A DNA stretch of 64,000 nt from Coffea arabica (Eukaryota; Streptophyta; Magnoliopsida; Gentianales; Rubiaceae), in NCBI RefSeq assembly GCF_036785885.1, contig NC_092320.1:11099557-11163556 (forward strand). The letters run 5' to 3'. Both the position numbers and the translations under genes were made by a program. The notes beneath the pieces were generated by a model. That model was not told where the DNA came from, searched no databases, and was given only the letters and a program-made list of their open reading frames with translations. Of this stretch, positions 27,001 through 32,477 are shown one piece after another (position 1 is the stretch's first letter; each line of letters opens with the position of its first letter).

Positions 27001-30000
27001 TTTCTAAAAGTGCAAGCACTTGTAAGCTCCCCCAAATACTTGGAAACCAAATGAGGATCCTTGCATGCATCACAGGTTTTTCCACATAATGACGCAGGTA
27101 CCTACTTTTCAAAGATAACACGAGAGGTATCACTCAAGCATCTAATAATGGTCCAAAATACAAATAGGAATGGAAAGACTAGTAGACACCAGCAGTTATC
27201 ACCTGTTCTCCAAAACTCTCAAGGATCTTCTTCCTACGGCAACCAGAGTTTTCGCAATATTCAACCATCTTCACGAATTATGAAGTCAAGATCCATATGA
27301 ATCAGACACAAAACATCACATCTAGAATTATAGAGGCCTCAAAAACTACCTGTCTAAAGTCTGCCAAGGATTTCTTTGAGGTATCATCCTGCAAGCTTGA
27401 GGACCGTGACCTATTGTTCTTAGCAGTACCCAGAATAAATTCCTTGAATATGGTTGAAAAGAATCAGAGTAAATTTCCAGAGCTTGATAGTCAAAATGGG
27501 AAATATGAAATTTGTGTTGGCAAAGCATAATATTAACCATTCTCTTCCTGTCATCCACTCCATAATACAAAAGACTTCTTGATGGCAACTGATCACGCCC
27601 TGCTCTACCTGACTCCTGATAAAAGGCCTCCATGGACTTGGGAATATTGAAATGGCAGACAATTCTGACATCCTTTCGATCTATACCCTAAAATTATTGT
27701 CCAGGAACCAAGTCAGCAACAAAACCTACTGGAGCTTGCTAGATTTTCTAACAAAAAAGAAGACGTACAAGTTGCATACCATCCTGCAATGAAGTCACCA
27801 ACTCAAGGATCAACCGAAGTTGCTCGAATGGAAATTGATAGAGAACAAAGCAGACAAGATTGAACAACCAAGATTAATCAGAAAAATTGGAGCATAACAT
27901 CAGAGCATACAGGAAAAGAAAAAGGAAAAAAAAAGAGTGCTAGAACAACACAAATTATTGCTATAATTTTAGAACTTCCATATGAGGAGCCCTTTCCTTC
28001 TTTTATTTTTTCCTTTTTTTCCCCTTATCCTTGAATTACAATTTGTCATGAAAGATGTAATCTGTTTAAGGTATTGATAACTTGTCCACGAACAACAATG
28101 GCAATATTGTAATTGAGAAGAGTTTCAAAAGATTGCATCAATTACTTAGATTAATGTCTAAGTCCTGGTCCACAGTGTTTAAAATAAAGAGCTTCAGTGG
28201 CAAGTACAAATTCACAAAAAAATTAATTCTGGAAAATGAAAAGATCAACTTTACACTTAGAATGACCATACCCAAAGGCCACAGTTGCCACGACAACCTG
28301 TGTTTTTGCTGAAATCCAATCATCCAATATAGAGCTCCTCAATTTACTGTTCAGTCCAGCATGATACGCTGAAAGCACAGCAACATCAGTACGGATTACA
28401 GGAAGCCCAAAAACTAAAGATGGTAAAACAACAAGCTGTGTTACCAGCACAGGTAACTCCATGTTTTGATAGATGAGAAGCCAGGTCATCACAAGTTGTA
28501 CGTTCAAGACAGTAAACAATTCCACAGATATCTCCATGTGATTTAAGGAAATTACATAAGTCAGCATATGGGTCATCCATAAGGTCCTTGTATCGAACTG
28601 CATCATGAAGAAAGCTAATAAGACAGGCAGATTGAAATTTCATAGACATACCCTGTAAATTGAATACACACTTTCCAACAGAGACACACAGTGAAAAGAA
28701 ATTCTAACATAAACTAAATGACATGAAATCAGTATGACATATTGTTCAGTCTCCTCATTTCGCTAATCTCTGAATCCACCGGGCTCCTTTTAGTCTGTAT
28801 TTCTGTTTCTGCTTTTCACACTAGAATTTGATAGGGATGACCCACACCAGCTCTATACTTTAAAGAAAGAACATTGGTTTATACATTAAGGCTGTTATCA
28901 GTGACCACACCTGAAATTGACCGCACTATCTTAACATTCCCATCTGTCAAACTTCAAATCAGTAAGTAGACAATATTTTCAGGTGGTGCTAAACTTCTTT
29001 ATAAAGTTACTTCAGCTTATAGCATCTCACCTTTGGAAACCTCCAGTAAGAAGGCTACATATCATATACATGTCTTTGAGAAACTCTCCCTGAAGGTTTA
29101 AGATGCCAATTGCCATGACCAAAACATTAGCCATGACCAAAACACTTGAAAATTCATTCTGTTTGGATAGACAATTACTTGTGCAAATTTATTTGATTGC
29201 ATCATAAACACATTTTCCAATCACCTTTTTTATCTCACATGCATAACATCAAAAGAATGCTACAGTAAATTTTTCAAAAAATTATTCGAAATAATCTCTT
29301 ATCCAAACACACTTACATTATTTTTCATTTTAAGAAGCCACGTTAATTGTTTTTCAAGGTACAAAATTACAAAAGCCATCAGCAAATTTAAACCAAAAAG
29401 GGGGAAAAAAGAAACTAACTCTATGAACATTTAAGGAATGCTTTTATTAGGCCAAAAGATCATCTGATATAAATATTCTCACAGGATGAAGACCTTGTCT
29501 ATAGAATTTTAAGTTATAATAAAGAGATCAAGCAAAATGCCTGAATCTTCTCAGCAAACCAATTCTCTATAAAGGAAATTTTCTAGTTTTGTCCTTAAGA
29601 AAATCATATCAGAACCTACCATCCTACACCTTTCCAAAAGACGTATTTGAATAAATTAATGTATAAGTGTCAGATTGTACTCGAGTCTTTTCCTTAATGT
29701 GCCGCATTGTCATGACAACAGAAAAGCCATAGAGATTCACTGACCATGCTAGGTTAAGACAATGTGGATGAGTGATCCACGTAGACCATTAAAACATAAA
29801 CGGATACTCATGCAGCTCAGCAAACACAAATAGTTAATGGATGCAATCGAAAAGAATTCCAAAATTACAGTAAAGCAAACCACATTGTGCTGACCTTCAT
29901 AATAAATATTTGGACGGTTGAAGGATGATTTCAGCACCAATGGGTTATGCAAGGACAACGACTCTATGACATCCTTCTGAACTCTGAAAGGAGTATGCAG

Positions 30001-32477
30001 TAAAGAAATACTTTCTCCAACTTCCATCAAAAAGAAGATAATTGAAAAAAGGTTAAGAGAAAAAAGCAACAACTATTTCATATAACAACTTTCATTCTTG
30101 AGTCAAAAGAAGTATACTCACTGAACAATTGCCGTCTAAGATTAGTAACAATAAGCAAATTTAAAAATGATATTTCATAATTCCATGAACACACTCAAAA
30201 CTACAAGGAACTAAAGCATACAAAGGGGAATTGAGCTTGAAGATGATTTAATTTAACATTTTAACAGAATTAGTGGAAGGAGTACAAGAAGCATCTGGAT
30301 CCATTGCTTTGAACAACTAAATTTGAACTAGAAATTCAACTTTAAGTTGAAAAAATGAAACTTACTTTGGGACAGCAGTTGCTGTCAAAGCCAACAAGGG
30401 TATGCCAGGCAGTCGGTTCCTTAAAGAAGAAAGCTTCCTGTAGCTGGGCCTATTACACACCAGTGAGAAGTTACAAGCAAAAACAAAAATTAATAACAGG
30501 ATAAGGAAGTACATTGTCCACAAAAAGCTTAAACTATTTACACATCAGCAAGCAGCATATACCCCAATACCATTTGGTTAAATTGTCATGGTTTTCATGC
30601 AACACTTTTATGGTTGGGATATTAAGTAAAATTTATAAGAGCCTATTTATGTGAACAAAATATAGATGCCCTAAAACAAGGCATCATCACTAAAAGTCAG
30701 TATGCCAACGTTAGGATATCTCCTGTCTCCTCTTTTACAATCGATTTGAAGGTTCCAGAAACATACATATCTAAAAAAGGTGGGAAGTTGATAAAAAGTA
30801 AGCTCCTTAAATTGAAGGAAATAAGATGACCTAAAAATCACAAGACACATTAGATTCAACTTTTTCGAGGAAGAACATAATTGAGCATCAAAGAGCACAT
30901 ACATGGGACTCCTTTTTATATTTTATATTTTACTTTAAATTTATTTTTATTATATTTCATTTTATTTTTTGGGGGGAGAAGGGAAAGGAGATTGGAGTTT
31001 TGACACCAAATTCCACCAAAAGTTGTTCTACCTTTGCTTTAATGGATGATAACTTTGTGAACTTATAGTGTTTCATTTTGTGTGTGACTTCACTAAAGTT
31101 CCTGTGTATATATCTACTTCAAAGACCGAAATCTTCTGCAAAGTAGAAAGAAAATACATATAATAATGGCCATCTAGGTGGGCCATCTGAAAAGGAAGAT
31201 ACTTCTCAAGTTCATCTTCCGTGTTAATAAGTATTGGAGTTTGAAACCAGAAAACAGTAAAAAGAGATATCTGAATAATTGTCATGGCCTCAGAGGCATT
31301 ACCTGAAGTCATGGCCCCATGTCGAAATGCAATGTGCCTAAAAGTTCGAACAGCACTGATGGTTATAAATTAACTTCAGAAGCATCTTAAAAAAGAGCTA
31401 CAAACCCAACTATAGCAGTTTGTCAAACCTCATCAATGGCAATAAGATTCAGCAATGCTCTAGCATGGATCTTGGTCAATTTTGACATAAATCCTGATGT
31501 CGCAATCAGTTCTGGTGTCACATACAACAACCTTAAGGATGGCTTTCCAGACTCAATGTCTTCATAAATCTGTAAATTCAAAACAAAGATGTCGTCATGA
31601 GCACAATGTCTCAATTATGCGTGATTATCAACTTATAAAGACTTACCAATGGGCTTTTGACATTTAAAGAATCATGTATTCAGGCTGCTATTGAGAATTA
31701 AAGATGACCATATACACAAGAAAAGTACCTTGCTTTTAACTTGTGCAGTTTGGGTTGAAGAAAGATATTCTGCAGCTATTCCTTTCGCTTTCAATGCCAT
31801 TACTTGATTTTCCTGTTTAAAATAGATATATTAACTAGAATCTACCTACATACAGCATCTTATATATAAGCACACAATATAACAACAGCAACAAATTCTG
31901 AATACACTTACCATTAGGGCTGCATGAAAATGGAGAAGGAGAACGAAACAAAAGCAATGAGATCTCCTAGCATTTGAAAATAAAAGAAAAAAGGTATTTC
32001 GTAGTTTAAACTTTCTCTATGGAAAACACGTTTAAGGTAACAAATATGGACCTATCAAAGGGCTGACAACAAGCACAATGCCGGTTTTTGCCAGGGCGGG
32101 AATTTGATAACACAGCGATTTCCCTCCACCAGTTGGCATAAGACAAAAGCAATCCCTTCCTAAATTCAAACCAACACAAACATTCAGAATAGTGGGATAA
32201 TCAAGTTACTATATTTCAAATCACACGAGACTTTTAATAAGCCTGTAGAAAGAAAAACAAAAGAAGGGAGTTCAAGAAGTTTTGAATGGGCAGACCATAC
32301 TACTAAAAGTGAATAGCTAGACGAACCTGAAAGTACCGCTTCAATAGCTTCCAGTTGCTTTCCACGAAACTCGGAATGCCCAAAATGCCACCTGAGGAGC
32401 TTTACTAAAGCTTCCTTGCCAATTTTTTGTTTCTCAGGCCCACATATATTTTGCACTGGTAACGGTGATTTCTTCAT
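24088..32477 (-). CDS. RECQL3: RECQL3-type RecQ DNA helicase, 19 exons with two microexons
   Basis: Exons in transcript order are 32327-32477, 32052-32159, 31912-31919, 31729-31812, 31429-31569, 31303-31337, 30366-30449, 29895-29983, 28445-28597, 28272-28368, 27780-27783, 27538-27687, 27350-27442, 27203-27268, 26974-27101, 25452-25546, 25207-25331, 24698-24804 and 24088-24538. All phases agree and give 722 residues, near the length of Arabidopsis RECQL3. The product is an ATP-driven 3'-5' DNA helicase of the nucleus, acting in recombination and replication repair. Motif 0 has Gln41, Walker A is MPTGGGKS (Lys64), the DEAH box is residues 163-166, and motif VI is QESGRAGRD (342-350). The RecQ zinc cysteines are probably 409, 427, 431 and 434. 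There is no HRDC domain, as expected for this subfamily. The C-terminal part ends with an acidic/Ser-rich stretch and [20 protein letters not shown]. Introns are large and carry small repeats. Confidence 0.95.
26386..26590. repeat. AT/GT-rich intronic repeat in the helicase gene
   Basis: Internally repetitive stretch with GTGTTTTTG, ATTTTTGG and TTTACTGTAG phrases in the 1.4-kb intron between exons 15 and 16, ending in a CCTCC-rich tract. It looks like a decayed MITE, but its ends are not clear. Confidence 0.35.
27780..27783 (-). other. 4-nt microexon (GATG) of the RecQ helicase
   Basis: On the minus strand the sequence reads cattgcag|GATG|gtatgc. The upstream exon ends TTTGG and the downstream exon starts GGTATAGAT. 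Only insertion of these four bases restores Phe-Gly-Met-Gly-Ile-Asp, a conserved helicase segment (motif V region). Without it the frame is lost. Confidence 0.88.
29159..29312. mobile_element. short MITE-like element in a helicase intron
   Basis: About 150 bp with inverted ends TGTTTGGATAGACAATTA and, reversed, TGTTTGGATAAGAGATTAT. It lies in the intron between exons 8 and 9. I see no convincing target duplication, so the family is unassigned. Confidence 0.55.
31912..31919 (-). other. 8-nt microexon (CCCTAATG) of the RecQ helicase
   Basis: On the minus strand: catgcag|CCCTAATG|gtaagtg. It joins SPLI with ENQVMAL and restores SPLIALMENQV of motif Ia. Both flanking introns have canonical GT-AG ends and the phase fits exactly. 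Confidence 0.92.

Follow-up and report, generated by a model that had tools for sequence, protein, structure and literature searches.

The RecQ helicase gene and its two microexons

We analyzed a RecQ-type gene of Coffea arabica, which encodes a DNA-repair helicase, and, in particular, two of its coding exons, which are only 8 and 4 nucleotides (nt) long. The gene lies within a stretch of 64,000 nt (NCBI RefSeq assembly GCF_036785885.1, contig NC_092320.1, positions 11,099,557 to 11,163,556 of the forward strand), referred to here as the window; unless another contig is named, coordinates are window positions. The first-pass annotation of the window had proposed a RecQ gene with coding microexons at 31912-31919 and 27780-27783, and the spliced model constructed here bears this out. 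The model extends from 32477 to 24088 and has a coding total of 2169 nt. With both microexons included there is a single stop codon, the terminal one, and the frame of 722 amino acids (aa) is open only when both are present. The features of the spliced model that matter for the analysis are listed below.

24088..32477, minus strand: RecQ helicase gene, putatively of the RECQ3/RECQL5 type, complete from its start to its stop and encoding 722 aa in 19 coding exons
32052..32159, minus strand: exon 2, 108 nt; carries PTGGGKS and ends with SPLI plus 1 nt
31912..31919, minus strand: exon 3, 8-nt microexon CCCTAATG, phase 1; completes SPLIALMENQV; top of 32 open joins, identical in the second gene copy, agrees in size and phase with the published Cluster 18
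31729..31812, minus strand: exon 4, 84 nt; starts with ENQV
28272..28368, minus strand: exon 10, 97 nt; ends with VATVAF plus 2 nt of a Gly codon
27780..27783, minus strand: exon 11, 4-nt microexon GATG, phase 2; completes FGMGID; top of 28 open joins, identical in the second gene copy, agrees in size and phase with the published Cluster 5
27538..27687, minus strand: exon 12, 150 nt; starts with GIDRKDV and includes QESGRAGRD

On the minus strand, the 8-nt exon (31919-31912) is preceded by TTTTCATGCAG and followed by GTAAGTGT, while the 4-nt exon (27783-27780) is flanked by CTTCATTGCAG and GTATGCAA, respectively. AG directly precedes and GT directly follows each of them. One nucleotide is carried into the 8-nt exon and two into the 4-nt exon, so that the canonical neighbors and the exact phases claimed initially are both confirmed. 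Across the two microexons, splicing gives the protein sequences VVSPLIALMENQV and VATVAFGMGIDRKDV, and both microexon-coded stretches are free of gaps in the alignment with RECQL5 (5lb8). We take the 8-nt exon to lie in motif Ia and the 4-nt exon in motif V. The first-pass annotation had spoken of 'ATPase motifs', but neither microexon is within the Walker A or Walker B ATP-binding motifs. The longest introns of the gene are intron 15 (25547-26973, 1427 nt) and intron 8 (28598-29894, 1297 nt); the third longest has 853 nt.

The 722-aa protein has the domain set of a RecQ helicase, namely DEAD, Helicase_C and RecQ zinc-binding domains. The Pfam models DEAD (PF00270, 90.0 bits), Helicase_C (PF00271, 70.6 bits) and RecQ_Zn_bind (PF16124, 51.8 bits) all score above their gathering cut-offs, and the NCBIfam model TIGR00614 (recQ_fam) reaches 457.9 against a cut-off of 219.8 for only the first 368 aa of the protein. 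The top PDB match is human RECQL5 (5lb8, E = 7.4e-112, residues 28-451). All nine top PDB sequences are RECQL5 (372-378 bits), followed by BLM (347), and RECQL5 is the closest RecQ subfamily with solved structures. We take RECQL5 to be the counterpart of plant RECQ3. Because RECQL5 is the best solved relative and the published RECQ3 microexon clusters match (see below), the gene is presumably of the RECQ3 type, in agreement with its initial RECQL3 label.

Frame-keeping alternatives and the second gene copy

It might be argued that there are no microexons in this gene and that either other junctions keep the frame or the locus is a damaged or wrongly assembled copy. To address the junctions, possible joins were enumerated at both sites. 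Single-intron alternatives combined any GT or GC donor with any AG acceptor, both lying no more than 45 nt away from the sites of the model. For the microexon alternatives the outer sites were kept, and every exon of 1-60 nt bounded by AG and GT was allowed between them as long as each of the two introns retained 20 nt or more; AT-AC introns, two microexons per intron and microexons with displaced outer sites lay outside this set. The scoring profile was built from 75 of 80 fetched bacterial and archaeal RecQ proteins. At the 8-nt site, 32 of the 149 joins tested (including the proposed one) are open, and the proposed join is at the top with 440.7 bits, the runner-up having 433.6. The corresponding values for the 4-nt site are 28 of 144 joins, 440.7 bits and 429.7 bits. 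Single-intron joins that keep the frame without a microexon do exist (19 at the 8-nt site and 20 at the 4-nt site), but each of them scores below the microexon solution. The same is true of other AG/GT-bounded exons of 1-60 nt: including the proposed ones, 13 and 8 candidates are open, and every other candidate is lower-scoring.

Chance occurrence was assessed with 2000 dinucleotide shuffles of the respective intron. AGCCCTAATGGT, representing the 8-nt case, was found in none of the shuffles, and AGGATGGT, representing the 4-nt case, in 11. Synonym-tolerant patterns were found in 47 shuffles for the 8-nt case and in 76 for the 4-nt case (AGNATGGT), so a chance origin of the 4-nt exon is conceivable; taken by itself, this exon is only moderately improbable by chance. 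Because its string alone is weak evidence, the 4-nt exon is supported mainly by the protein profile, the second gene copy and the published cluster. A genome-wide search with the 9-letter string CCCTAATGG matched 4389 places (trailing Ns ignored) and was uninformative.

The searched genome (1.198 Gb, 131 contigs) contains a near-identical second copy of the gene (L017, contig C12:9938500-9948400), in which all 19 coding exons are intact. This copy is open over 723 aa, with one additional codon in the last exon. Both microexons are unchanged (8/8 and 4/4 bases), as are the AG and GT that bound them. The two copies are identical at 2129 of 2169 exon sites and at 5949 of 6172 aligned intron sites (96%), with 49 intron bases unaligned. 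We considered a pseudogene or an assembly artefact, and the intact copy, which can be regarded as good evidence against either, makes both unlikely. Moreover, RECQ3 microexons of equal size and phase have been published from other plants (PMC8831610). Given also the lower profile score of every tested join, a gene without microexons is hardly credible at this locus.

Contigs with near-identical RecQ-type matches are paired (C1/C2, C3/C4, C11/C12 and others), which suggests a recent polyploid. As paralog controls we used six other RecQ-type loci (L098-L103), one from each near-identical pair, leaving out weaker helicase matches. Motif Ia is unsplit and in a single frame in all six. In five of them the FGMG of motif V is likewise uninterrupted, although in one of the five, L103, the frame is lost right after FGMG as if an intron begins there; in L102 motif V was not found with the patterns used. 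These observations fit introns particular to the RECQ3 lineage, and within the fetched RecQ-type set both microexons appear to be particular to the RECQ3 gene. Genome-wide, TIGR00614 produced no single match above its cut-off because the search reads genes exon by exon.

Published clusters, splice-site strength and skipping

Yu et al. 2022 (PMC8831610) described 45 conserved plant microexon clusters. RECQ3 genes (e.g., AT4G35740.1) are assigned there to two of them, 'Cluster 5 (size 4; phase 2)' as well as 'Cluster 18 (size 8; phase 1)'; the RECQ3 figures of that paper are Supplementary Fig. 11, which belongs to Cluster 5, and Supplementary Fig. 24. If the gene is indeed RECQ3, the internal coding exon at 27780-27783 (4 nt, phase 2) agrees with the definition of Cluster 5 and that at 31912-31919 (8 nt, phase 1) with the definition of Cluster 18. 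Since only Clusters 4, 12, 39 and 43 are called flowering-plant-specific, we infer that Clusters 5 and 18 predate the flowering plants. The observation is correct but already known: microexons of the same sizes and phases are catalogued in RECQ3 across land plants, which answers the query raised in the first-pass annotation as to whether they had been catalogued. The main text of the MEPDB paper (PMC12409088) does not name RecQ, and three papers mentioning both RecQ and microexons (PMC6009662, PMC7042379 and PMC4458573) do not, in the parts considered, treat RECQ3 microexons; the word 'microexon' turns up in them as an option of a mapper, in a remark of a general kind or in the title of a reference.

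Splice sites were scored with a leave-one-out matrix derived from the 18 introns of this one gene, the resulting ranks being given without a significance test. The acceptors of the 8-nt and 4-nt exons rank 1st and 2nd of 18; for the donors of these exons, the ranks are 1st and 5th. Directly upstream of the microexons lie intron 2 (31920-32051) and intron 10 (27784-28271) of the minus strand, whose donors are weak: they occupy ranks 16 and 18 out of 18, within the bottom three of the gene. According to PMC8831610, microexon splicing is slow and sequential, the upstream intron tends towards detention, and introns flanking microexons are detained more often than other introns. The weak upstream donors agree with such detained introns.

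In the spliced model, the frame stays open for only 111 aa if the 8-nt exon is skipped and for 318 aa if the 4-nt exon is skipped, as the initial claim of a frameshift would have it. Skipping both (12 nt together) does not restore the frame, which still ends after 111 aa because a stop lies between them. It had been suggested that this constitutes a splicing-based off switch, in which regulated skipping, for example upon DNA damage or in particular tissues, would yield frameshifted, degraded mRNA and less helicase. The premature stops, the weak upstream donors and the more common detention of microexon-flanking introns can be cited in favor of such a switch. In addition, mutation of the splicing factor GRP20 in Arabidopsis flowers caused skipping of 140 microexons, most of which (120) measure 26-50 nt (PMC10808074, main text), indicating that inclusion of plant microexons is controllable in principle. 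However, premature stops are expected whenever an exon is skipped whose length is not divisible by three, and by themselves they are no sign of regulation. The own splice sites of both microexons are among the strongest of the gene. Most plant coding microexons have a percent-spliced-in (PSI) value above 0.5 and belong to the major isoform, and whether the minor variants are functional or represent noise is unclear to the authors themselves (PMC8831610). The GRP20 paper, in its main text, reports no notable difference for any further microexon of up to 25 nt. The same main text has no occurrence of RecQ, AT4G35740 or helicase, and GRP20 was dropped as a candidate regulator of RECQ3, although the supplementary tables, which lie outside this count, could still hold a RECQ3 effect. 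Regulated RECQ3 skipping is not reported in the parts of the literature considered. The off switch is therefore without positive support, and we regard it as quite improbable.

The combination of weak upstream donors and strong microexon sites could also be read as conserved control by detained introns. Unfinished RECQ3 mRNA would then form a nuclear pool, to be released or destroyed on genotoxic or developmental signals, thereby setting the helicase dose. We consider this possibility about as unlikely as the off switch.

Probably old, normally included microexons of a putative plant RECQ3 gene

The explanation that we favor, with a probability of about 95%, is that these are two evolutionarily old, normally included coding microexons of a plant RECQ3 (RECQL5-like) helicase gene. 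Each would be an ordinary coding piece between two introns that are 8 or 4 nt apart. A strong acceptor and a strong donor of its own would get each microexon spliced in, offsetting the lack of space for exonic enhancers, and the two flanking introns would probably be removed successively. For this explanation, the exons, their phases, the open frame, their conservation between the two copies and the site strength relative to the rest of the gene come from the present analysis. The RECQ3 clusters matched in size and phase, the order of splicing, in which the upstream intron is often delayed, and the usual inclusion in the major isoform are taken from PMC8831610. In Coffea arabica, inclusion of both microexons is likely to be near-constitutive.

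Several points weigh against this explanation or limit it. Inclusion in Coffea arabica is a prediction from the DNA sequence. The match to Clusters 5 and 18 was made through gene, size and phase as published and not through the 108-nt tag sequences, whose similarity to a position weight matrix marks membership in a cluster. The second copy, however good as evidence against artefacts, would be only weak evidence for long-term selection because the intron identity between the copies is so high. The splice-site ranks come from a small sample, the 18 introns of a single gene, and the weak upstream donors could equally be taken to prepare the transcript for regulated skipping or intron retention.

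The most immediate consequence concerns annotation. A gene model that drops either microexon breaks off at 111 or 318 aa, or else is forced to invent junctions, and RECQ3 would then be wrongly taken as broken. The initial expectation that gene finders misannotate such a gene is likely to be true in general, as microexons are often absent from annotations (PMC8831610). The locus also adds a clean independent case for two clusters out of the 45 published, seen in each of the two gene copies of an apparently polyploid genome. Were the switch real, which is unlikely, it would amount to dosage control of a recombination helicase. Directly downstream of the helicase gene, a minus-strand frame from about 22817 downwards looks by eye like a proteasome alpha-6 type subunit.

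Among known systems, the closest likeness is to Clusters 5 and 18 in the catalogue by Yu et al. 2022, whose gene family, length and phase are those of 27780-27783 and 31912-31919, respectively; no difference is apparent from the published description. Arabidopsis RECQ3/RECQL3 (AT4G35740) is an example gene with both clusters in PMC8831610, and we infer its orthology to the window gene. Human RECQL5 (5lb8), the top solved relative, resembles the window gene at the protein level, the microexon-coded stretches aligning without a gap. The 1-nt microexons of plant APC11 and VPS55 (PMC8831610) are likewise ultra-short coding exons, but they belong to other genes and are shorter still.

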